Shown here piece by piece: positions 3,355-39,976 of a stretch of DNA of 45,214 nucleotides. Positions within the stretch are counted from its first letter, which is position 1; each line of letters starts with the position of its first letter. Under the pieces are notes generated by a model. It was not told the origin of the DNA and did not search any database. It saw only the letters and a program-made list of their open reading frames with translations. A program made the translations under genes and the position numbers. Origin of the DNA: a virus. The DNA lies in the IMG/VR virus record IMGVR_UViG_3300014839_000014, positions 1 through 45,214 of that record; one strand, given 5' to 3'.

Positions 3355-4740
3355 ATGAGCGATGCCAATGCTCTCATTGGCCTAACGCCCAGAGAGATTG
3401 AAGGATTAGTAATAAAAATGCCCTGCTCCTTCGCTAGTTACGCGAGCGGTGGGAGGTGGCTTCCTTATCGGTGGATCCAGCATATATCTAGGCGAGTTAC
3501 ACCAAAAATAAACGAAGGAGACGGAAGGTTCTTAATAGAAGCGCCACCTCAACACGGCAAGTCAGAGTTTATATCTCACTGGTTGCCTACGTGGTACTTA
3601 AAGAACAATCCGAGAGGAAAGGTTATTCTGGCTTCATATGCAAGCACATACGCCGAGAAATGGGGAGCAAAGGTTCGAGAAGAGCTTACGCTTAACCCAC
3701 GCTGTGCTATCCCAATGCGTACTGACACCAAGGCCAAAAGCAGGTTTATGACCAAAGAGGGCGGTTACATGATCGCCACGGGTATCGGAGGACCCATCAC
3801 GGGCGAAGGCGCAGACCTTCTTATTATTGACGATCCGTTTAAAAACTACGAAGAGGCCATGTCCGAGAGGATCCGAGAGCGAAACTCGGACTGGTATCGA
3901 TCGGTGTGCCGCACACGACTACAGCCAGGCGCAACCGTGGTCATTTTGCATACCAGGTGGCATGAGAACGATTTAATCGGTGAACTAAACGCCGAGGGTG
4001 GGTGGGATCGAATACGCTTTCCGGCGCTTGCCGAGGAAGAGGGGGATCCGATTGGGAGGAAGCCTGGAGAGGCGCTCTGCCGAGCTAGATACGACGAGGC
4101 TGCGCTTAATGCCCTTCGGGTAGACCTAGGCCCTATGATTTGGGAAGCCCTGTTTCAACAGAACCCGGTAGCGATAGGCGGAAATATCATTCATGGCGAT
4201 TGGATTAAGAGATACGATGCATTGCCAAAGGATATGGACGAGATCGCTATATTTTCTGACCTAACTTATCAAGAGGGCCAGGAGAATGATTTCGCAGTAA
4301 TCGAGGCATGGGGCCGGCGCGGGGCAAACATATACCTGATCACGCAGATCCGACGACAGATGGGGTTTAAGGACCAAATGGATGCAATTATCCGGATGAA
4401 AGAACGATACCCAACGGCCTATCACGTTGAGATCGAAGAGGCGGCAAATGGCGCGGCCGTAATCGAAATGCTTAAACAAAAGATACCTGGAATCTATCCC
4501 AATAAACCGAGAACATCCAAAGAGGCACGCCTTAATGCAGTAGCTCCTATTTATCAGGCCGGGAACGTGTGGTATCCAAACGAGCATACTAATCCATGGG
4601 TAAAAACAAACATAACCGAGGTAACAAAATTTCCGAGATGGAAAAACGACGATACAGTTGACGTCGCTAGTATGGCCGTGGGACATTTCGGAAGGTTCTG
4701 TTCTTCACTCCAGAGGCTTGCCGCTTTAGGCCGAAGGTGA
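3355..4740 (+). CDS. terL: Terminase large subunit
   Basis: 461 residues, a normal length. The ATPase half has a Walker A variant APPQHGKSE (residues 63-71), a Walker B LLIIDDP (about 155-161) and a coupling-type segment LHTRWHENDLIG. The nuclease half begins with FSDLTYQ, whose Asp near 302 is a likely metal ligand, and ends with DDTVDVASMA. This is the phage packaging motor: it pumps DNA into the prohead and cuts the concatemer. The weak GAGA-type ribosome site lies 6-10 nt upstream. Order small terminase, His-rich protein, large terminase, portal is typical apart from the inserted gene. Confidence 0.95.
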   Translation: MSDANALIGLTPREIEGLVIKMPCSFASYASGGRWLPYRWIQHISRRVTPKINEGDGRFLIEAPPQHGKSEFISHWLPTWYLKNNPRGKVILASYASTYAEKWGAKVREELTLNPRCAIPMRTDTKAKSRFMTKEGGYMIATGIGGPITGEGADLLIIDDPFKNYEEAMSERIRERNSDWYRSVCRTRLQPGATVVILHTRWHENDLIGELNAEGGWDRIRFPALAEEEGDPIGRKPGEALCRARYDEAALNALRVDLGPMIWEALFQQNPVAIGGNIIHGDWIKRYDALPKDMDEIAIFSDLTYQEGQENDFAVIEAWGRRGANIYLITQIRRQMGFKDQMDAIIRMKERYPTAYHVEIEEAANGAAVIEMLKQKIPGIYPNKPRTSKEARLNAVAPIYQAGNVWYPNEHTNPWVKTNITEVTKFPRWKNDDTVDVASMAVGHFGRFCSSLQRLAALGRR

Positions 4741-4754
4741 GAAAGTAGAGAAAC

Positions 4755-7073
4755 ATGGCAAAAATAACTTCGATTCGTAATGGTGTTAAACGCGGTCCAA
4801 TCGAGCGCAATCAAAAGCGCACAGACGGCTGGTCAAACTTAATTACGCTTCTCGGCACTACTCTTGATAAACGGGAGCACGCGCACTTACGCTGGGACCA
4901 CAGGGAACCAGAGTTCTATGAGCAAATGTACGCAGGCGGAGGAATTCCTGCGCGCATCGTTGATCTTATTCCAGAAGAGTCTTTAAGGCACTGGGTTGAC
5001 TGGACCGGAGTTGATAAGGACAAGTATGAAGAGATTAACGATCGCTGTGAACACTTAAACGTGCGAGACGCGCTTGCTAAGTCTTGGAAATGGGGAAGAG
5101 CTTACGGCGGAGCAGCATGTCACATTGTCACTGACACGATCGACCCTGCCTCTCCGCTTCAGGTTGGAGAAAAAGTTATCGGCCTTCGCGATCTTTCCCG
5201 ATGGGACCTGCGCGTATTAACCACAGATGTAGAGTTTGATTTTGGATCTCCTAATTGGGGGCATCCACGAATTTATTATTTAAACGTTCAGATGGGATCG
5301 CAATATAAAGGCTATCCGATTCACTGGACTAGGATGCTTAGGTTCGACGGACAGCTAGTTCCTAGAAGGACATATATCCGAAATAATTACTGGCATGATT
5401 CGATTTTGAATCGGCTTTATAACGCTATCCGCAACTACGAGATTTCAAACGATGCAGCGGCGGCCTGTTTACAGGACTTCAACGTTGACGTGTTTAAGAT
5501 GAAAAATCTAGCGAACCTTGTAGCTAGTGGACATGAGCATATAATCAAGGATCGCATTGAGATCATGCAATATGCGAAGTCTGTTATCAACGGAATGCTT
5601 ATTGATTCAGACGAGGAGGACTACGAGAACAAAGGCAGAAATATGACGGGCGTGGCCGAGCTACTCGTACATCAAGCCAACAGATTAGTTGCCGAGACGG
5701 ACATACCACACACGAAGCTTCTAGGGGAAAGCCCGGACGGATCTAATGCCACGGGTAACTCCACCTCTCAACAGTGGTACAACTTCATAGCCACCGAGCA
5801 GGAGAACTATCTAAGGCCCAAGCTTAAGCGCCTTATCCAAATATTATTCCCAGATATTCCTGATCTTGGATTCAAGTTTAAATCCCTGCGCGTGCTAGAT
5901 GATAACGAGAAGTCAGATCTGCGATTAAAAACTGCTCAGACCGATCAGATATATCACGATATGGGAGCGCTAGATGCTACCGAAATCACCAACTCACGAT
6001 TCGGCGGAGACGAGTGGACAATGGAAACCACGCTGGACAAGGAAGGAAGAGAATCAGGACTAATCGTTCCCGGCCAGCAACCGATGGAATCAGGAGGCGA
6101 AGAAAATGAGCCGGACGAAGCCAAACACGTTGCGGGAGAGCAAGCGCCGGAAGGCAAGTCAAGATTCTCGAGCACAAGCGGAACGGGAGAAAAAGAAGAG
6201 GAGCCAGGAGCTTCCGAAACCGAGCCGGGACATGATATGCGCGGACATGAAGGCGAGGGAAAGGATATCTCTGGGGTTCCCAAGGAGAAGCACCCTCAAC
6301 CCAAAGACTCGGTAGAGGGGCAGGGCATCGGCGAGGTATTCTCTGGAATGCTTAAGCCAGGAACAGAGTTCGATCTTAAAAACGAGGAACACATAGTTCC
6401 AGATGGTAAAAAACCAGAGAGCACATTTATAAGCCAGACCATGAGCGAACCAATGAGAGATCCTCGTACCGATCCACACATCAAAGGTCCGGGAATTCCA
6501 AGCCATAATCGCACAGTGCTTCCAACTCGAGGAACGGGATTAATAGCGCCGAGCGGGTTTGATTTCGAGAAGGATGCAGGTAAGAAGGGCGCAATCCGAG
6601 AGCAGACGCCAACCGCAGCAAGCGGGGGATCCACGTACGTTGTTGAAAAGAAGGACTCAGTAGAACCACAACGCCGACGAGCGGCTACGATTATTGTCCG
6701 AAAGGACGATAAATTCCTGATGGGCACAACCAATAAGAACGGTCGATGGACTCTACCCGGAGGAATCGTTGAGGATAATGAATCCATGCATCAGGGCGGC
6801 ATCCGAGAGCTTGCCGAGGAGTCGGGGCTTGAAACAAAGAAACTAAAGTTTGTTGGTAGCCGGCTAGTTGAAAGCGCGCTGGGTAAGCCATACGAGGTAG
6901 CAATTTATGAAGTCAATGCGCCGGAAGGCTTTAAGCCGACCACGAAAAACGATCCGGACAAAGAAGTTGCCAGGTGGGCGTGGCACCCGACTGATAAACT
7001 GGATAAAGAGGTTCTGGCAAATCTTAAACACCCCAATAACGTGGCACTAGATCACATGGGGCTTTTAAAATGA
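4755..7073 (+). CDS. Portal protein (DUF1073 type) fused to C-terminal Nudix hydrolase
   Basis: 772 residues, much longer than a plain portal. Residues 1 to about 440 match DUF1073 portal proteins (GGIPARIVDLIPEESLRHW near the start; KLLGESPDGSNATG and a helical stem later). Residues about 440-635 are a low-complexity linker rich in E, G, K and P. Residues about 640-772 form a Nudix domain with a complete Nudix box at 670-692: G-x5-E, x7, then RELAEESGL. Nudix enzymes hydrolyse nucleoside diphosphates linked to another group. The portal forms the ring at the head vertex, so each virion would carry up to a dozen Nudix domains. Substrate unknown. Confidence 0.92.
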   Translation: MAKITSIRNGVKRGPIERNQKRTDGWSNLITLLGTTLDKREHAHLRWDHREPEFYEQMYAGGGIPARIVDLIPEESLRHWVDWTGVDKDKYEEINDRCEHLNVRDALAKSWKWGRAYGGAACHIVTDTIDPASPLQVGEKVIGLRDLSRWDLRVLTTDVEFDFGSPNWGHPRIYYLNVQMGSQYKGYPIHWTRMLRFDGQLVPRRTYIRNNYWHDSILNRLYNAIRNYEISNDAAAACLQDFNVDVFKMKNLANLVASGHEHIIKDRIEIMQYAKSVINGMLIDSDEEDYENKGRNMTGVAELLVHQANRLVAETDIPHTKLLGESPDGSNATGNSTSQQWYNFIATEQENYLRPKLKRLIQILFPDIPDLGFKFKSLRVLDDNEKSDLRLKTAQTDQIYHDMGALDATEITNSRFGGDEWTMETTLDKEGRESGLIVPGQQPMESGGEENEPDEAKHVAGEQAPEGKSRFSSTSGTGEKEEEPGASETEPGHDMRGHEGEGKDISGVPKEKHPQPKDSVEGQGIGEVFSGMLKPGTEFDLKNEEHIVPDGKKPESTFISQTMSEPMRDPRTDPHIKGPGIPSHNRTVLPTRGTGLIAPSGFDFEKDAGKKGAIREQTPTAASGGSTYVVEKKDSVEPQRRRAATIIVRKDDKFLMGTTNKNGRWTLPGGIVEDNESMHQGGIRELAEESGLETKKLKFVGSRLVESALGKPYEVAIYEVNAPEGFKPTTKNDPDKEVARWAWHPTDKLDKEVLANLKHPNNVALDHMGLLK

Positions 7074-7150
7074 TTGATCGATGGGAAGAGATGTGCATCC
7101 TGTTGTTTGGACTACTTATTATTATGGCCTACTTAAATAGACTGCCATGA
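7070..7150 (+). CDS. 26-aa membrane micro-protein between portal and head genes
   Basis: ATG at 7070 overlaps the portal stop (ATGA), and its own TGA overlaps the next ATG (ATGA at 7147-7150). The 26-residue peptide has a short charged start (MIDRWEEM), one hydrophobic helix (CILLFGLLIIMAYL) and a basic end (NRLP), as for a single-pass membrane peptide. The perfect double overlap and membrane-like composition support translation by coupling. Role unknown. Confidence 0.5.
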   Translation: MIDRWEEMCILLFGLLIIMAYLNRLP

Positions 7151-7989
7151 AGTTCACACGCAAGCCGAAAATCCTTCCGAAACCAGTAGCTCCTAACTCA
7201 GCAGAGCGCGACTACTTACGCTACATTAATAAATACGTCAAGCTATATATTGATCTAATGCGCACAGGGCTTGAGGAGATTATTCCGGATTTAAAAGAGA
7301 CGGCCGGAAAGGAGATGCCGCAGGTTCGTATGGACGCAAACGTCGAGTCGCGGGTTAGGAAACTGTTCGACAAGATCCAGGCGCAACTAGATGATTCTTT
7401 TTCGGATGCGATGCTTCGACGATGGGCGAAAAACATGGTTGGAAATGTCAATCGTAACTCTAAAAAAAATACAACCAGAGCAATTAAGGCAGGATATAAA
7501 AAGACGGGAGAGGTTCCTAACTTCGAGCCGCTCATGCAGGACGGAAAACTTTCTCCATACTTCGAGAACGTAGTTGACGAGAACGTGGGATTAATCCGCA
7601 GTATTCCATTGCATAGGCTTGAGCCGTTTAAAAATCAGCTAGTTGCGGTGATCACTAAAGACAGGTCTTACTCAGAGATTAAGAAAATAATTATTAAGCA
7701 CTTCGGCGCAACTCGCGCGCGCGCAGCGCTTATCGCTCGAGATCAGGTTGGAAAATTAAACGGGCAGTTGAATAAATATCGGCAACAGCAGCTCGGGGCG
7801 AAAAGATATATTTGGAGAAGCAGTGCAGACGCTAGAGAGCGAAAGGATCATCGAAGGCTTAACAACACGGTGCAGCTATGGTCTAGGCCGCCGATTGTAA
7901 ACAGAAGCACGGGAGAACGCGGGCATCCTGCCGACGATTATCAATGTCGCTGCTGGGCGGAAATGGTCTTAGAGGACATATTAGAATGA
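7147..7989 (+). CDS. Head morphogenesis protein, SPP1 gp7 / Mu gpF type
   Basis: 280 residues. The C-terminal part has the family pattern: ARAALIARDQVGKLNGQLNK, then KRYIWRSSADARERKDHRRLNN and a closing HPADDYQCRCWAE motif with H, C and C residues. The N-terminal half is helical. Members are minor head proteins present in a few copies near the portal, and SPP1 gp7 binds the portal and affects DNA entry into the cell. Position directly after the portal is the usual one. Its end overlaps a possible 16-codon ORF. Confidence 0.9.
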   Translation: MKFTRKPKILPKPVAPNSAERDYLRYINKYVKLYIDLMRTGLEEIIPDLKETAGKEMPQVRMDANVESRVRKLFDKIQAQLDDSFSDAMLRRWAKNMVGNVNRNSKKNTTRAIKAGYKKTGEVPNFEPLMQDGKLSPYFENVVDENVGLIRSIPLHRLEPFKNQLVAVITKDRSYSEIKKIIIKHFGATRARAALIARDQVGKLNGQLNKYRQQQLGAKRYIWRSSADARERKDHRRLNNTVQLWSRPPIVNRSTGERGHPADDYQCRCWAEMVLEDILE

Positions 7990-8036
7990 ATCTTGATGAT
8001 TATTCGATAATCTGTCAGACTAGAAAGAACGCATGA
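7986..8036 (+). CDS. Possible 16-aa coupling micro-ORF
   Basis: ATG at 7986 overlaps the previous stop (ATGA) and the frame ends 16 codons later at a TGA overlapping the ATG of the DUF2213 gene (ATGA at 8033-8036). The peptide (MNLDDYSIICQTRKNA) has no evident feature. It exactly bridges the gap between two genes, so it may serve to carry terminating ribosomes to the next start rather than to make a useful peptide. Confidence 0.3.
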   Translation: MNLDDYSIICQTRKNA

Positions 8037-9697
8037 AAATTCAACGTCGCGCCTTACGCTTTGATTTGGGAGAACTTCGAGAGTCATCGCGAACTCCGCA
8101 GGGATTCCTCAAGGTGCCGGGCTTTGCCACGCGGGTCGGAGTATTCCCTTACATGGACGGTTCTGGCAAGATTCGGCGTGAGCTGCGTCATCCCGATGAC
8201 GTATTCGACCCAAAATCTTTAGAAACTCTTAAATATGCTCCTGTTACCATCGAGCACCCTCCAGAGATGATTAATCCCGAGAACGTGGATCAATATCGAG
8301 TGGGACACACTACCGAGCGCGTTGAGATCCAGCAAGACAAGGTTGACACGGACTTGATTGTTGAAAGCAAGGAAGGAATTGACGCGATCGAGAAGGACGG
8401 AATCCGGGAACTTTCAAGCGGATACGCAGCGGACATAATCGAAGAGGAAGGCGACTTTAATGGCGCGCCATACGACTATCGGCAAGTAAACATTCGATAT
8501 AATCACCTTGCAATGGTGCGTAGAGGTCGGGCTGGACCGGAGATAAGAATGCGGTTAGACTCAGCAGACGCCGTTATGCAGAACGAAGGAATTTCAGTAC
8601 CGATGGAATCAGAGTTTTCTCAAGAGCCAAGCACAAACGATTCAGAGCAGAGACCTGGATCCGAGAATGCTATAGGCGAGCCAGAAGTTAAGCAGCTTGT
8701 AATATCAGGCCGGGAGGTTGAGCTGCCCTCCGATGTCGCCGACACGGTTCAAGATTATATTGACCGCTTCGACGAGATGCGTGCCAAACTAGCTCAATTG
8801 GAGGATGAAATGAAAGCAAGCAGAAAAGACGCCGACATCAATCAGCCCGGCATCTCCCCTCAGGTTAAGGTGGAGCAGCAGGGTCCAGATGGACGCGCCG
8901 CAAGTGGGAAGGTCGCCGCGAAAACTGGAACCATTACTGGTCCAGTAGGTCCGGAGGCTCAGCTACCAAAAAACGATAAGGACGAGGAAGAGGAAAAGAA
9001 AGACGTCGAAGGAGCCGAGGAACAGGGCGGAGTAAAGAAGCGCGGTAAAGCCGATAAAGAAGAGGAAAAAGACGACGACGATGACGACGACAAAAAAGAC
9101 GATGACTACGCCGCTGGCGCTGGCACGGGAGCCGGTGGGGCTGCGGCTGGTCCAGTCGAGCGCATGAAGCAAGACATCGAAGCCATTAGAGATGCCTATA
9201 AGGGCGATGCCGATCTTGAAAAGAAGCTCGATGCCCTCGAAGGCAAAATGGACGCTTTCGCATCAGAAGGCTTTGGCAAAAACGAAAAGAAGGGAGACCG
9301 TAAGGACTCCGCTTCTAATAGCCAGGGTGCCGTTCGCGCGCGCGTGAAGCTAGAGCGTAACGCTGAGAAGATGGTTCCGTATGAAGTAGCTCAGAAGTTT
9401 GACTCCATGTCTGACAATGAAATCCGCGCCGCTGTGATTAAACACCACAACCCACGCGCCGATCTGGAAGGCAAGAGCCACGTTTACATTCAAGCGAGAT
9501 TCGACAGCATGTGTGAATCCATTGAAGAGACGGACACCTCTGAATATCGCAAGGAAATGGGCCGGAGAATGCTGGGCATTGATGGCGAAGACCGTATGGA
9601 CGGTTCCGAAGAAGTTGATCCAAACGCGGCGCGTCTCCGCATGATCAAGGCTGGACGCGAAGAGTTCAAGTCGAACTTGTCGGCCACAAAAAAGTAA
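8033..9697 (+). CDS. DUF2213 prohead protease/scaffold-like protein
   Basis: 554 residues. The first about 175 residues match DUF2213, thought to be a prohead protease fold: PVTIEHPPEMINPENV with a His, IRELSSGYAAD with a candidate Ser, and NHLAMVRRGRAGPEIRMRLDS near the end of the domain. After it comes a long charged region with a very acidic stretch (about residues 316-360, including DDDDDDDKKDDD) and a helical C-terminus, as expected for an internal scaffold. It is plausibly a protease with its scaffold fused on, needed to assemble the capsid encoded two genes downstream. Catalysis is inferred. Confidence 0.82.
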   Translation: MKIQRRALRFDLGELRESSRTPQGFLKVPGFATRVGVFPYMDGSGKIRRELRHPDDVFDPKSLETLKYAPVTIEHPPEMINPENVDQYRVGHTTERVEIQQDKVDTDLIVESKEGIDAIEKDGIRELSSGYAADIIEEEGDFNGAPYDYRQVNIRYNHLAMVRRGRAGPEIRMRLDSADAVMQNEGISVPMESEFSQEPSTNDSEQRPGSENAIGEPEVKQLVISGREVELPSDVADTVQDYIDRFDEMRAKLAQLEDEMKASRKDADINQPGISPQVKVEQQGPDGRAASGKVAAKTGTITGPVGPEAQLPKNDKDEEEEKKDVEGAEEQGGVKKRGKADKEEEKDDDDDDDKKDDDYAAGAGTGAGGAAAGPVERMKQDIEAIRDAYKGDADLEKKLDALEGKMDAFASEGFGKNEKKGDRKDSASNSQGAVRARVKLERNAEKMVPYEVAQKFDSMSDNEIRAAVIKHHNPRADLEGKSHVYIQARFDSMCESIEETDTSEYRKEMGRRMLGIDGEDRMDGSEEVDPNAARLRMIKAGREEFKSNLSATKK

Positions 9698-10289: not shown

Positions 10290-11285
10290 ATGAAAACGCG
10301 TTCTTTTAAATCCCAGAGTCAGGTTCGGATGGACTCCGCTCGCCTGATTCAACGTGGTTTGCGCTGCGACTCAAACGAGTCAATGTTCATGCTTCGTCAA
10401 TTGGACTACATCAAACAACAGACCTACGATATCAAGTACCCGGAACTCAAAGCCCGTAAATTGATTCCCGTAAGCTCTGAGGCCGATCCGGGCGCAGAGA
10501 ATATCTTCTATCGTCAATACGACCAGTCTGGCATTGCGAAGATTATCAGCAACTATGCTGACGACCTTCCAGACGCAGACGTTGCCGGCAGGGAATTCTC
10601 AGCGGCCGTAAAAACACTGGGCGCTTCGTATAAGTACAGCATCCAGGAAATGCGCGCTGCGATCTATGGGAACGTTCCCCTGGAACAGCGTAAAGCCAAT
10701 GCTGCACGTCGTGCGGTTGCCCAGAAGGAAACTCGAATTGCCTTCTTTGGTGACACACTGACCGGACTGATTGGTTTGTTTACGGCTCCGAACGTAACCT
10801 CTGTTACGATTCCGGCTACCGGCTCAGGCACGACAACCCAATGGGTTAACAAAACCCCGGATCAGATTTTGTTTGATATGAATCTGGTTGCGAACACGGT
10901 TGTTAGCGTTTCGCTCGGTATCGAGAACCCGGACACCATGCTGTTACCGCTTGCGCAGTACAACTACGTAGCGAGCACGGCACGGTCCGACTACTCGGAT
11001 AAGACGATCCTGAACTACTTCCTCGAAAACAACCCCTATATCAAACAGGTTGAATGGGTTAACGAGCTGAAGGGTGCAGGCGCGACTGGTTCTGGCGCAG
11101 GTCCGTATGATCGTATGTATGCCTATCGGCGATCGCCGGAAGTGCTTACACTCGAAATTCCTTCGGACTTCGAGCAACTCGAGCTTGAAAAACGGAATCT
11201 TGTTTACAAGGTTCCTTGCATCGAACGTCTCGGTGGCGTGTTGGTTTATTACCCGCTCGCGATCGCATTCGGAGATGGCATCTAA
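10290..11285 (+). CDS. Major capsid protein (DUF2184)
   Basis: 331 residues, with the HK97-fold layout of DUF2184 capsid proteins: N-terminal helix region, ELKARKLIPVSSEADPGAE, SYKYSIQEMRAAIYGNVPLEQRKANAARRA (spine helix), FGDTLTGLIGLF, PDTMLLPLAQYNYVAST and the C-terminal CIERLGGVLVYYPLAIAFGDGI. It forms the icosahedral shell. The upstream CAAGGAAAGGAA is a strong ribosome site. A clear intrinsic terminator follows, as expected for the most highly expressed gene. The codon use is GC-richer and cleaner than in neighbours, also consistent with high expression. Confidence 0.93.
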   Translation: MKTRSFKSQSQVRMDSARLIQRGLRCDSNESMFMLRQLDYIKQQTYDIKYPELKARKLIPVSSEADPGAENIFYRQYDQSGIAKIISNYADDLPDADVAGREFSAAVKTLGASYKYSIQEMRAAIYGNVPLEQRKANAARRAVAQKETRIAFFGDTLTGLIGLFTAPNVTSVTIPATGSGTTTQWVNKTPDQILFDMNLVANTVVSVSLGIENPDTMLLPLAQYNYVASTARSDYSDKTILNYFLENNPYIKQVEWVNELKGAGATGSGAGPYDRMYAYRRSPEVLTLEIPSDFEQLELEKRNLVYKVPCIERLGGVLVYYPLAIAFGDGI

Positions 11286-37388: not shown

Positions 37389-37703
37389 TTATTTGTGAAT
37401 CCATCTTTTTCTCGATTCACTTAACACCCATCCAGAATTAATTAGCCATCTATAAACAGTGTCATTATGAAGAGATAATTCTTCTATTCCGACGTCACGC
37501 ACTAAGAGGTGGCACCTTAAACACATCGGCATCACGTTCCAATAAAGATCCGACTTAACCCTAATATAATGCGGAATGCTTTTGATTGTTGTCGTTCTCA
37601 TATTCCTTAGCGCTTCCTCTGGGTTAAGGTCTGCGCAGGCAAGACATGGAATCCTAACGATTGTATCTATAAGGGCAACGTCTATGGTTTGGCGAAAGAC
37701 CAT
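37389..37703 (-). CDS. HNH-like protein at end of modification island
   Basis: 104 residues with a small zinc/HNH-like pattern: CLACADLNPEEALRN, then HYIRVKSDLYWNVMPMCLRC ending in CHLLVRDVG. The C-x2-C, HY-I, N and C-x2-CH order is that of HNH nucleases. Its ATG overlaps the stop of the ParB-like gene as TAATG, so it is cotranscribed with the island. It may cut unmodified DNA or assist homing; activity is not established. Confidence 0.68.
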   Translation of the reverse strand: MVFRQTIDVALIDTIVRIPCLACADLNPEEALRNMRTTTIKSIPHYIRVKSDLYWNVMPMCLRCHLLVRDVGIEELSLHNDTVYRWLINSGWVLSESRKRWIHK

Positions 37704-38272
37704 TAAGAATTTGTATCAAAACTTTGTCCACAATGCGGACATACATAGGTTTTAATCGCCTTCTGCCTACTGTCTACTAGGTCCTTAAATTTATTGCCGA
37801 GCGCATCTGAGGTATTATTAATATCCTCTTGAGACACTCCCGCGTGCGCCGTGCTTCCTATTGATTTTCCGTCGAGGATATCGGGATTAAGCTCTGGATA
37901 ATGAATAAGGAATGGCTCGAAATCAACAAGCTCTCGGATCTCCGGAATAAGGTTTGTTAACTCCCACGTTGCCTTTGTTGACGACTCGTTATCGATAATA
38001 CGATATGCCTTGGCCTGGTCATGATTTAGGTTAGAGATAAGGCATTCAATATGAGTTACCCCATTTCTCTTTGCCGCCTTATAGCGGGTATGTCCTGTAA
38101 TAATTACATATTCGGAGTCGAGCACTAAAGGAACATTAAGCCCATACGCATTGATCGATTCTTCTACGCCTCCGACTGCGTCGTCATTGTTTCTTGGGTT
38201 TCTCCAGTAGGGAACGATTTTTTCGATTGGTACAAGCTCTAGGCGTCCATTAAGCTTTAGTTGGTTTTCCAT
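37703..38272 (-). CDS. ParB-like protein with C-terminal zinc knuckle
   Basis: 189 residues from ATG 38272 (AAAGGA upstream; a longer frame to 38341 lies in the next gene). The ParB/Srx-type domain (about residues 10-110) shows LVPIEKIVPYWRNPRNND, VEESINAYGLNVPLVLDSEY and ITGHTRYKAAKRNG. The end has CPHCGQSFDTNS. ParB-fold proteins bind CTP or act on nucleotides and DNA; in phages they often pair with modification genes. It overlaps the next ParB-like gene by 23 nt. Confidence 0.8.
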   Translation of the reverse strand: MENQLKLNGRLELVPIEKIVPYWRNPRNNDDAVGGVEESINAYGLNVPLVLDSEYVIITGHTRYKAAKRNGVTHIECLISNLNHDQAKAYRIIDNESSTKATWELTNLIPEIRELVDFEPFLIHYPELNPDILDGKSIGSTAHAGVSQEDINNTSDALGNKFKDLVDSRQKAIKTYVCPHCGQSFDTNS

Positions 38273-38828
38273 TTTCGTGTTCCTTTCTAATTTGAATCTG
38301 TTTATCGGTTTCATACGCCCGAGAATACTGGGTGTTGGCAAACAGCTTAGAGAATCCCGTAATATGTTTTAGGCGCACTAGCTCATCAGCCTCCATGCCT
38401 AACTGATTACATATATCGGCGTCCTTCCATCCATTATTTAACATTTCAAAGACCATGGAGGACATCCCAGCAACACTATGTTTACCGCGCGCGCGATTGT
38501 GACTAACGGTTGCGGCCATTCGGTCGTTAATATCTTTCTTTAATACGGCGATCGGAAGAAGACCCCGGTTAAGATCATGAATGTCCTTATTCATTCTCAT
38601 TGTTGAATATCGGTGAAATCCGTCTACGATAACGTATTTATCTCGCTTTTCATCATAGATGGCGACGATGGGCTGAGTATACCCGTCGTTCTTTATCGAT
38701 ACATAGAGGAGCCGCATTTCATTAGTGGCAACTGCATTCGGGTTATAGTCGTTTGCCTCTACCTTATCGATCGGCACCCAAATAACATTAGATACTGGAT
38801 TATGCTTTACACAGTCTGGTGTACTCAT
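38250..38828 (-). CDS. ibrB: IbrB-like ParB-domain protein
   Basis: 192 residues. ParB-type motifs: WVPIDKVEANDYNPNAVAT, RLLYVSIKNDGYTQPIVAIY and VIVDGFHRYSTMRMN. A helical C-terminus follows (AGMSSMVFEMLNNGWKDADI). The gene directly follows the PAPS-reductase-like gene on an ATGA overlap. This is the IbrA-IbrB order described in E. coli (immunoglobulin-binding regulators) and seen in many phages. The pair is thought to act together on nucleic acids or nucleotides, but the reaction is unknown. The name is by similarity and order. Confidence 0.82.
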   Translation of the reverse strand: MSTPDCVKHNPVSNVIWVPIDKVEANDYNPNAVATNEMRLLYVSIKNDGYTQPIVAIYDEKRDKYVIVDGFHRYSTMRMNKDIHDLNRGLLPIAVLKKDINDRMAATVSHNRARGKHSVAGMSSMVFEMLNNGWKDADICNQLGMEADELVRLKHITGFSKLFANTQYSRAYETDKQIQIRKEHENGKPTKA

Positions 38829-39976
38829 TGTTTAGCCGCCTTACGTTCATTACGTCTGCGCTTATACTCTTCCCAGTGTTCGCGCGGGACGGGGACATTA
38901 TTTAGTTTTACGTGTTCCCAGTCGTTACATAGAATCGAGGTAATATGTAACCTCATTAGCTTGTCTCCAAAGATCCAACCAAGAAGCTCTTCCATTTCTT
39001 TAAACTTCTTTCGGAACCCCTCTTTCCAGTCGGGATTATCAATAAGGTTTTCCAAAAGATAATCTCTATATTCCTTCCAAGAGCTAAACATCGGAGGAAG
39101 GTGGTGAGGACAATAGAAATCATCCCATCCCATTTTGCCGGCCATGTCTATACCCTCAACGCGGGCAACGATCTTATTATAATTCTCCGGTTCTAGCTCC
39201 TGAAGAATAAACAGTGCTCGGACGGCCGTTTCATGGTGAAGATTAGATACGCGCATATCATTAACCGGCACGCCGTACTGATACATTTTATCGTAGACCT
39301 TATTATAGGGCCACCCGTTATCATGAATTGCCTTCCAAACGTCGGTATAAGACCAATCATAAATTGGGTAAAACGTATAGTGTTCTCGCCTCTTATTTAA
39401 TTCTTTTCCCCAGGTAACGCCTCCATAGGTATGCCCACCCGTTAGTCCGCTCGCACGCCTTGGGGATTCTTCTGCCCGGACGCCGGCAATATAACAGCTT
39501 TTCTGATTAGGAAACTCTACGGCAAAGATTCGCTCAAATAGTTCTCCAAAACGGTCGGTTCCATATCGATTCTCTTTATATGAGTTCGGCTCTTTAGGTC
39601 GGATCCAGTTGGCCTCGTCGTTGGGATTCCAACACTGAAGCCAGTGATCTTTGAATGACGTTGCATTAAATAGTTTAAAGGGAAACTGTAACCACATGGG
39701 GATTACTTCGGGCCGGAGCATAATTTCACGAACCGTGTCTACTGTTGATAGCCACTCCGCTTCTTGATCGAGCCACATAACACGAAGCGGGAGACGTCCC
39801 TTCTCACGTGCCACCAGGAGCGCTAGGTGGAGCACCACTGTACTATCTTTTCCTCCAGATACTCCGACGACTACATTAGGGAATTCGTCGAATAGCCAGC
39901 GTATACGGACGAGTGCAGCGTCAAACACATTCTCTTTAAGAAATACTTTCTTATTGCTCATTTGAGGCTTGTCCAA
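38825..39976 (-). CDS. ibrA: IbrA-like PAPS reductase / ATP pyrophosphatase family protein
   Basis: 383 residues from TTG 39976 (ATG 39961 is equally plausible; neither has a strong ribosome site, so coupling to the 36-aa ORF is likely). The PP-loop SGGKDS is at residues 40-45, inside VVVGVSGGKDSTVVLHLALL. Further family parts: VMWLDQEAEW, SCYIAGVRAEESPRRAS, HYTFYPIYDWSYTDVWKAI and DMRVSNLHHETAVRAL. PP-loop enzymes adenylate a substrate and often transfer sulphur; DndC of DNA phosphorothioation is a relative. IbrA-type enzymes lack a settled reaction. Confidence 0.88.
   Translation of the reverse strand: MDKPQMSNKKVFLKENVFDAALVRIRWLFDEFPNVVVGVSGGKDSTVVLHLALLVAREKGRLPLRVMWLDQEAEWLSTVDTVREIMLRPEVIPMWLQFPFKLFNATSFKDHWLQCWNPNDEANWIRPKEPNSYKENRYGTDRFGELFERIFAVEFPNQKSCYIAGVRAEESPRRASGLTGGHTYGGVTWGKELNKRREHYTFYPIYDWSYTDVWKAIHDNGWPYNKVYDKMYQYGVPVNDMRVSNLHHETAVRALFILQELEPENYNKIVARVEGIDMAGKMGWDDFYCPHHLPPMFSSWKEYRDYLLENLIDNPDWKEGFRKKFKEMEELLGWIFGDKLMRLHITSILCNDWEHVKLNNVPVPREHWEEYKRRRNERKAAKQ

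Follow-up and report, generated by a model that had tools for sequence, protein, structure and literature searches.

The window, by which we mean the whole 45,214-nucleotide stretch of DNA analysed here (IMG/VR virus record IMGVR_UViG_3300014839_000014), encodes a portal protein that continues, through a long linker, into a complete Nudix hydrolase domain. Our overall reading, to which we give a probability of roughly one half, is that this is a virion-borne Nudix effector, carried on the portal and packaged with the genome, which would act early in infection on an NDP-X compound. The portal-Nudix architecture itself is already known, and the window is a well-documented further case. Coordinates of the relevant features are collected in Table 1.

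Table 1. Features of the portal-Nudix gene and of neighbouring head genes in the window
Feature	Position	Strand	Description or basis
Portal-linker-Nudix open reading frame	4755-7073	+	772 aa; ATG at 4755, stop ends 7073
Portal core, residues 1-432	4755-6050	+	PF06381/DUF1073-type dodecameric portal; Pfam, PHROG and solved homologues
Linker, residues 433-640 (~205 residues)	6051-6674	+	Rich in polar, charged, Pro and Gly residues, few hydrophobics; disordered-looking
Linker motif FISQTMSEPMRDPRTDPHIKGPGIP, residues 558-582	6426-6500	+	Invariant across seven sequences at 22 of its 25 positions
Nudix hydrolase domain, residues 641-772	6675-7070	+	PF00293, AlphaFold2, Foldseek
Nudix box GIVEDNESMHQGGIRELAEESGL, residues 670-692	6762-6830	+	Exact GX5EX7REUXEEXGU
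DPDKE motif, residues 733-737	6951-6965	+	Loop before last strand; signature of phage Nudix clade
Terminase large subunit	3355-4740	+	PF03237/PF17289, PHROG 38
MuF-like head morphogenesis protein	7147-7989	+	PF04233, PHROG 324
DUF2213 head maturation protease, possibly with scaffold part	8033-9697	+	PF09979 (E 6e-42), PHROG 530
Major capsid protein	10290-11285	+	PF09950 (E 1e-70)

The fusion is genuine. The gene forms one continuous frame with 0 internal stops, and Pfam places PF06381 at residues 55-399 (E 3e-76) and PF00293 at residues 640-751 (E 5e-14) of its product, bearing out the order portal, linker, Nudix that had been proposed in a sequence-only reading of this DNA. PHROG 146 (portal) matches residues 18-505 (E 1e-92), and homologues of the portal core with solved structures are 9jlf, 9l01, Pam3 (8hds) and E217 (8fvh). 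Scans of viral contigs yielded five more distinct relatives in which a single frame runs from portal through linker to Nudix (L002, L003, L008, L010 and L011; three others, L012, L013 and L022, nearly duplicate L011 and were left out of the count). Although portal and Nudix genes do occur as separate neighbours in L021, a relative of the L155 clade described below, the fusion without a stop recurs in six distinct sequences, the window included, from independent contigs, which rules out the frameshift considered in the sequence-only reading, or a contig join, and makes any artefact that united a portal gene with a separate Nudix gene, be it frameshift, sequencing join or chimeric contig, exceedingly improbable. 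As for a free Nudix protein made from an internal start, just one in-frame start in the linker, Met532, has a Shine-Dalgarno sequence of any kind, and that a partial one; this candidate is weak and lies about 108 residues before the domain.

The Nudix domain is complete and is predicted to adopt the Nudix fold. Its box, described earlier as perfect, does match the consensus exactly, and G670, E676, R684, E685, E688 and E689 are invariant in an alignment of 60 related viral domains; the catalytic glutamates, whose possible loss had been raised in the earlier reading, are therefore present, and a degenerate Nudix domain is ruled out. AlphaFold2 modelled the domain alone, with 13 related sequences, at a mean pLDDT of 93.3 (the model of the full-length 772-aa protein, at pLDDT 33, is unusable). 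The top 50 Foldseek matches of the predicted domain were all Nudix enzymes, the first being YmfB/NudJ with a TM score of 0.79; further matches were AtNUDX1, NudC, MTH1 and NUDT15. Between relatives, fourfold-degenerate sites differ by 51-82%, while the Nudix protein sequences are 58-77% identical; dS is mostly saturated, and for that reason no dN/dS ratio is given. Near-saturated synonymous sites together with a conserved protein point to strong selective constraint on the domain. Judged from its sequence, the Nudix part of the portal protein is very likely to be an active enzyme.

The domain also bears the mark of a phage lineage. The motif DPDxE was found in 58 of 72 viral Nudix domains as against 3 of 51 cellular ones, with D733, P734, D735 and E737 kept in 95-98% of the 60 viral rows, and the Nudix tree sets a viral group of 57 rows apart from the cellular domains at moderate support (85/87). 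Over longer stretches, no cellular Nudix domain exceeds about 31-32% identity to that of the window. A genome scan with the fusion for a cellular origin or a prophage host found no relative, and a plasmid search gave matches to the portal part only, at about 32% identity or less.

Comparison of related portals shows the Nudix domain to be gained or lost as a module. The portal protein of L004, which shares 76% identity overall with that of the window and 82% within the portal part, has the same linker and then, at the point where the Nudix domain would start, KKKK and a stop; the MuF gene starts about 85 bases past it. Such a clean end marks the Nudix domain as dispensable cargo. A second fusion, L155 (971 aa; PF06381 at 92-422, NUDIX at 831-950), belongs to a separate portal clade. 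In the portal tree it falls with L184, L185, L188 and L021 in a fully supported clade of their own, the other four members of which have no fused Nudix, and in L021 a free-standing Nudix gene (148 aa) lies between the portal gene, which it follows directly, and those for MuF and the DUF2213 protein. In the Nudix tree L155, L020 and L021 group together (100/99), apart from the group of the window (100/97). Portal-Nudix fusions are likely to have arisen separately, a single origin being disfavoured by the portal and Nudix trees, with the limit that one clade of all portal-fused Nudix domains was not rejected in an AU test (p 0.175).

Near relatives of this Nudix domain are also found within large phage proteins, where their partners are an XkdF-type prohead protease (L122, L129), LPD1 (L124), ART-PolyVal (L127, Myxococcus phage Mx1) and GNAT domains (L126, L134, L135), while a more distant Nudix domain lies at the N-terminus of the DUF2213 protease of Yersinia phage vB_YenM_29.18. 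The polyvalent proteins among them (Myxococcus phage Mx1 WNM70333.1, L124 and L127) are large, are predicted to be injected and carry a Nudix of the same phage clade as the window, with the DPDxE loop in Mx1 WNM70333.1 and L124; unlike the window protein, they have no portal and have other partner domains. In L015, a PF04860 portal contains an intein splicing domain (344-2260) and a free Nudix gene of the same clade lies nearby (3416-3904).

Other portals of the PF06381 family carry different enzymes at the position that the Nudix domain takes in the window. In the portal of Rhizobium phage RHph_I72 (L210, 1070-2905), PF06381 at 40-386 is followed by Acb1, PF23474, at 460-607 (E 2e-30), so that the premise of the earlier reading, that this portal family carries Acb1 at the same place, holds. 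The portal gp18 of Pseudomonas phage PB1 (L211, 9111-11417) has PF06381 at 115-463 and an InPase, PF18823, at 639-757 (E 2e-43), and gp12 of Aphanizomenon phage CL131 (L192, 3423-7601) unites portal, InPase and MuF in one polypeptide of 1393 aa. All three, like the window protein, consist of a PF06381 portal, a linker and then a small nucleotide or phosphate hydrolase, but the folds and chemistry of these C-terminal enzymes are unrelated to those of the window Nudix. On these domain matches, one C-terminal slot of the portal family holds Nudix, Acb1 or InPase. Pfam gave no match to the Acb1 domain PF23474 in the window protein. A search of the available papers for Acb1-portal fusions returned nothing relevant, and the presence of Acb1 in a portal rests on the Pfam result. 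Acb1 is a member of the 2H fold class. Fusions of 2H domains and of InPase to portals were described in 2017 (PMC5512222).

Solved virions indicate where such a C-terminal domain would lie. E217, Pa193 and Pam3 (8fvh, 9b41, 8hds) have a homologous portal core and are contractile-tail phages like that of the window; E217 and Pa193 (portals of 765 residues) are, like PB1, members of Pbunavirus. The model of the E217 portal covers residues 97-528 and shows a C-terminal barrel that projects into the head and is ordered in DNA-filled heads only (PMC10329688), and residues 529-765 of the Pa193 portal gave no density (PMC11042391). Past residue 528, then, the C-terminus is not built in E217 and Pa193, and their relative PB1 has an InPase there, not a Nudix. 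By homology to these portals, twelve copies of the Nudix domain are expected in the head interior, each on a flexible tether, and we infer, from the E217 homologue, that the head is its probable location. The earlier estimate of about twelve copies per virion is likewise backed by a dodecameric portal whose C-terminal barrel enters the head, as in E217 (PMC10329688).

The linker that would serve as tether is composed to 75% of DEKRSPGQNT and to 17% of hydrophobic residues. It contains no extra domain in the window, whereas L003 and L010 carry a DUF6496 unit just before the Nudix domain, and a scan with the linker alone found matches solely in portals of this group. Within this otherwise fast-changing region stands the conserved motif FISQTMSEPMRDPRTDPHIKGPGIP, which is kept in the Nudix-less L004 too; its role must therefore be independent of the Nudix domain, and it could be a docking or cutting site for scaffold, capsid or protease.

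The fusion gene lies in a head module with the order terminase large subunit, portal, MuF, DUF2213 protease, cement protein and major capsid protein, followed by genes for sheath, baseplate hub and baseplate wedge. The sheath and baseplate genes identify a contractile-tail phage, with head genes related to those of Pam3 and E217, which agrees with the trend for Nudix domains in myoviruses reported by Iyer et al. 2022 (PMC9503650) and supports the effector reading. Elsewhere in the window, two ParB_N-like genes lie beside a PAPS-reductase/DUF3440 gene on the minus strand (37703-39976), a possible host-takeover or DNA-modification cassette, and a short run of GTCGGG repeats occurs near the left end of the record (60-97). 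In L002 the terminase large subunit gene (3580-5985) is split by a LAGLIDADG-type insert, probably an intein, that the window gene does not have.

The data presented above have led us to propose a model in which the portal dodecamer would hold about twelve Nudix copies on long flexible C-terminal tethers on the interior side of the capsid, where they would be packaged together with the genome. The Nudix domain would then be freed from, or moved past, the portal into the newly infected cell and cut the diphosphate of an NDP-X compound, the lead candidates being ADP-ribose or NAD-derived defence signals or toxins. Since the portal remains in the capsid after ejection, injection of the tethered enzyme would need a cut, and the DUF2213 protease encoded two genes downstream is a candidate for cutting the linker, in which no cut site was found. 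For action in the newly infected cell as such, we put the chances at somewhat less than even.

The alternative that fares best, though we think it rather unlikely, is that the Nudix domain acts late, in the producing cell: made with the late genes, it would clean or regulate nucleotides (oxidised dNTPs, Ap4A or RNA 5' ends) or suppress a late defence signal before or during assembly. Its gene does sit among structural genes, the structural matches include MTH1, NUDT15 and NudJ, and there is no sign that the domain exits the head; Iyer et al. 2022 (PMC9503650) state, for ARTs, that head-module enzymes may counter packaging-directed immunity. For such a task, however, a free gene would do better than a twelve-copy tether on the portal, and related Nudix domains have repeatedly been joined to proteins for which packaging or injection is assumed. 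Less probable again is a structural role, with the domain as an inner decoration of the portal that would bind nucleotides or DNA ends and whose catalysis would be irrelevant. A position beside packaged DNA, and the ordering of the E217 portal barrel only with DNA present (PMC10329688), would suit that role, but conservation of all the catalytic residues is strict throughout the relatives, and the close relative L004 manages without the domain.

The diphosphate bonds of NDP-X compounds are what Nudix enzymes cut, while Acb1 cuts 3'-5' phosphodiesters, and this difference makes cleavage of cyclic oligonucleotides or SAM-AMP unlikely for the window protein. A strict counterpart of Acb1, degrading a cyclic or adenylated messenger of immunity such as those of CBASS or type III CRISPR, is accordingly a slim prospect, in spite of the place that Acb1 has in the same slot of the same portal family in RHph_I72; the slot in PB1, moreover, holds an InPase, which is no obvious signal hydrolase. 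Of the comparison with Acb1 drawn in the earlier reading, the shared position in a shared portal family stands, but neither the functional equivalence nor action on a defence signal finds support.

As regards the substrate that the virion-borne effector would act on, the evidence points in several directions. ADP-ribose pyrophosphatases have as their signature a proline at position 15 or 16 past the Nudix box. The window has S15 and A16 and thus does not carry it; L010 and L011 have P15. The NudC NAD(+) diphosphatase model scored 30 bits against a cut-off of 158, and other equivalog models scored far under their cut-offs. The best structural matches are pyrophosphatases of NTP, NADH and other compounds and so cover several specificities, and among the genes scanned no Macro or NADAR partner was found. 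T4 NudE, which was not part of the Nudix tree, is linked to the clade by weak tblastn matches only, which pair L120, a member of the clade, with the NudE genes of RB43 and other T4-like phages (E ~1e-3 to 1e-4). An ADPr- or NAD-type signal as the target is put forward tentatively.

Iyer et al. 2022 (PMC9503650) describe Nudix domains of phages in fusion with MuF, with the portal and with prohead peptidase; they propose that these are packaged in the head and injected, and they call the portal-fused ones T4 NudE-like and tie them to ADPr. The window shares with these fusions a Nudix on a portal and a myovirus setting; it differs from them in having no ADPRase signature. The PHROG 15528 'portal protein' profile likewise contains a portal part (~28-466) and a Nudix part (~520-628). 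The window protein aligns with the two of them, its Nudix domain at profile positions 523-628, but the spacing between the two parts is shorter in the profile and the portal part of the window matches PHROG 146 better. These fusions, together with a profile spanning both parts, reduce the novelty implied by the earlier reading. The DPDxE clade, the absence of the module in L004 and the second fusion in L155 were not found in the available text of Iyer et al. 2022 (PMC9503650). What the present analysis adds is the signature of the phage clade, the Nudix-less sister, a second fusion with its unfused neighbour, and a slot common to Nudix, Acb1 and InPase.

A wider proposal, speculative and in our view doubtful, is that PF06381 portals offer at their C-terminus an exchangeable site for the delivery of nucleotide hydrolases that counter host defence. 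The DPDxE Nudix clade would, in this view, be an enzyme family specific to phages and specialised for delivery by the virion, destroying a host immune nucleotide not yet known as the target of a packaged phage enzyme. The findings also draw attention to the unbuilt portal C-terminus in the solved virions of E217 and Pa193, given the InPase of their relative. With Nudix, Acb1 and InPase in one slot and a natural Nudix-less form in L004, these phages offer a comparative system for the question whether portals act as cargo carriers. If the enzyme does travel in the virion, the phage would act on a host nucleotide signal before expressing its own genes.
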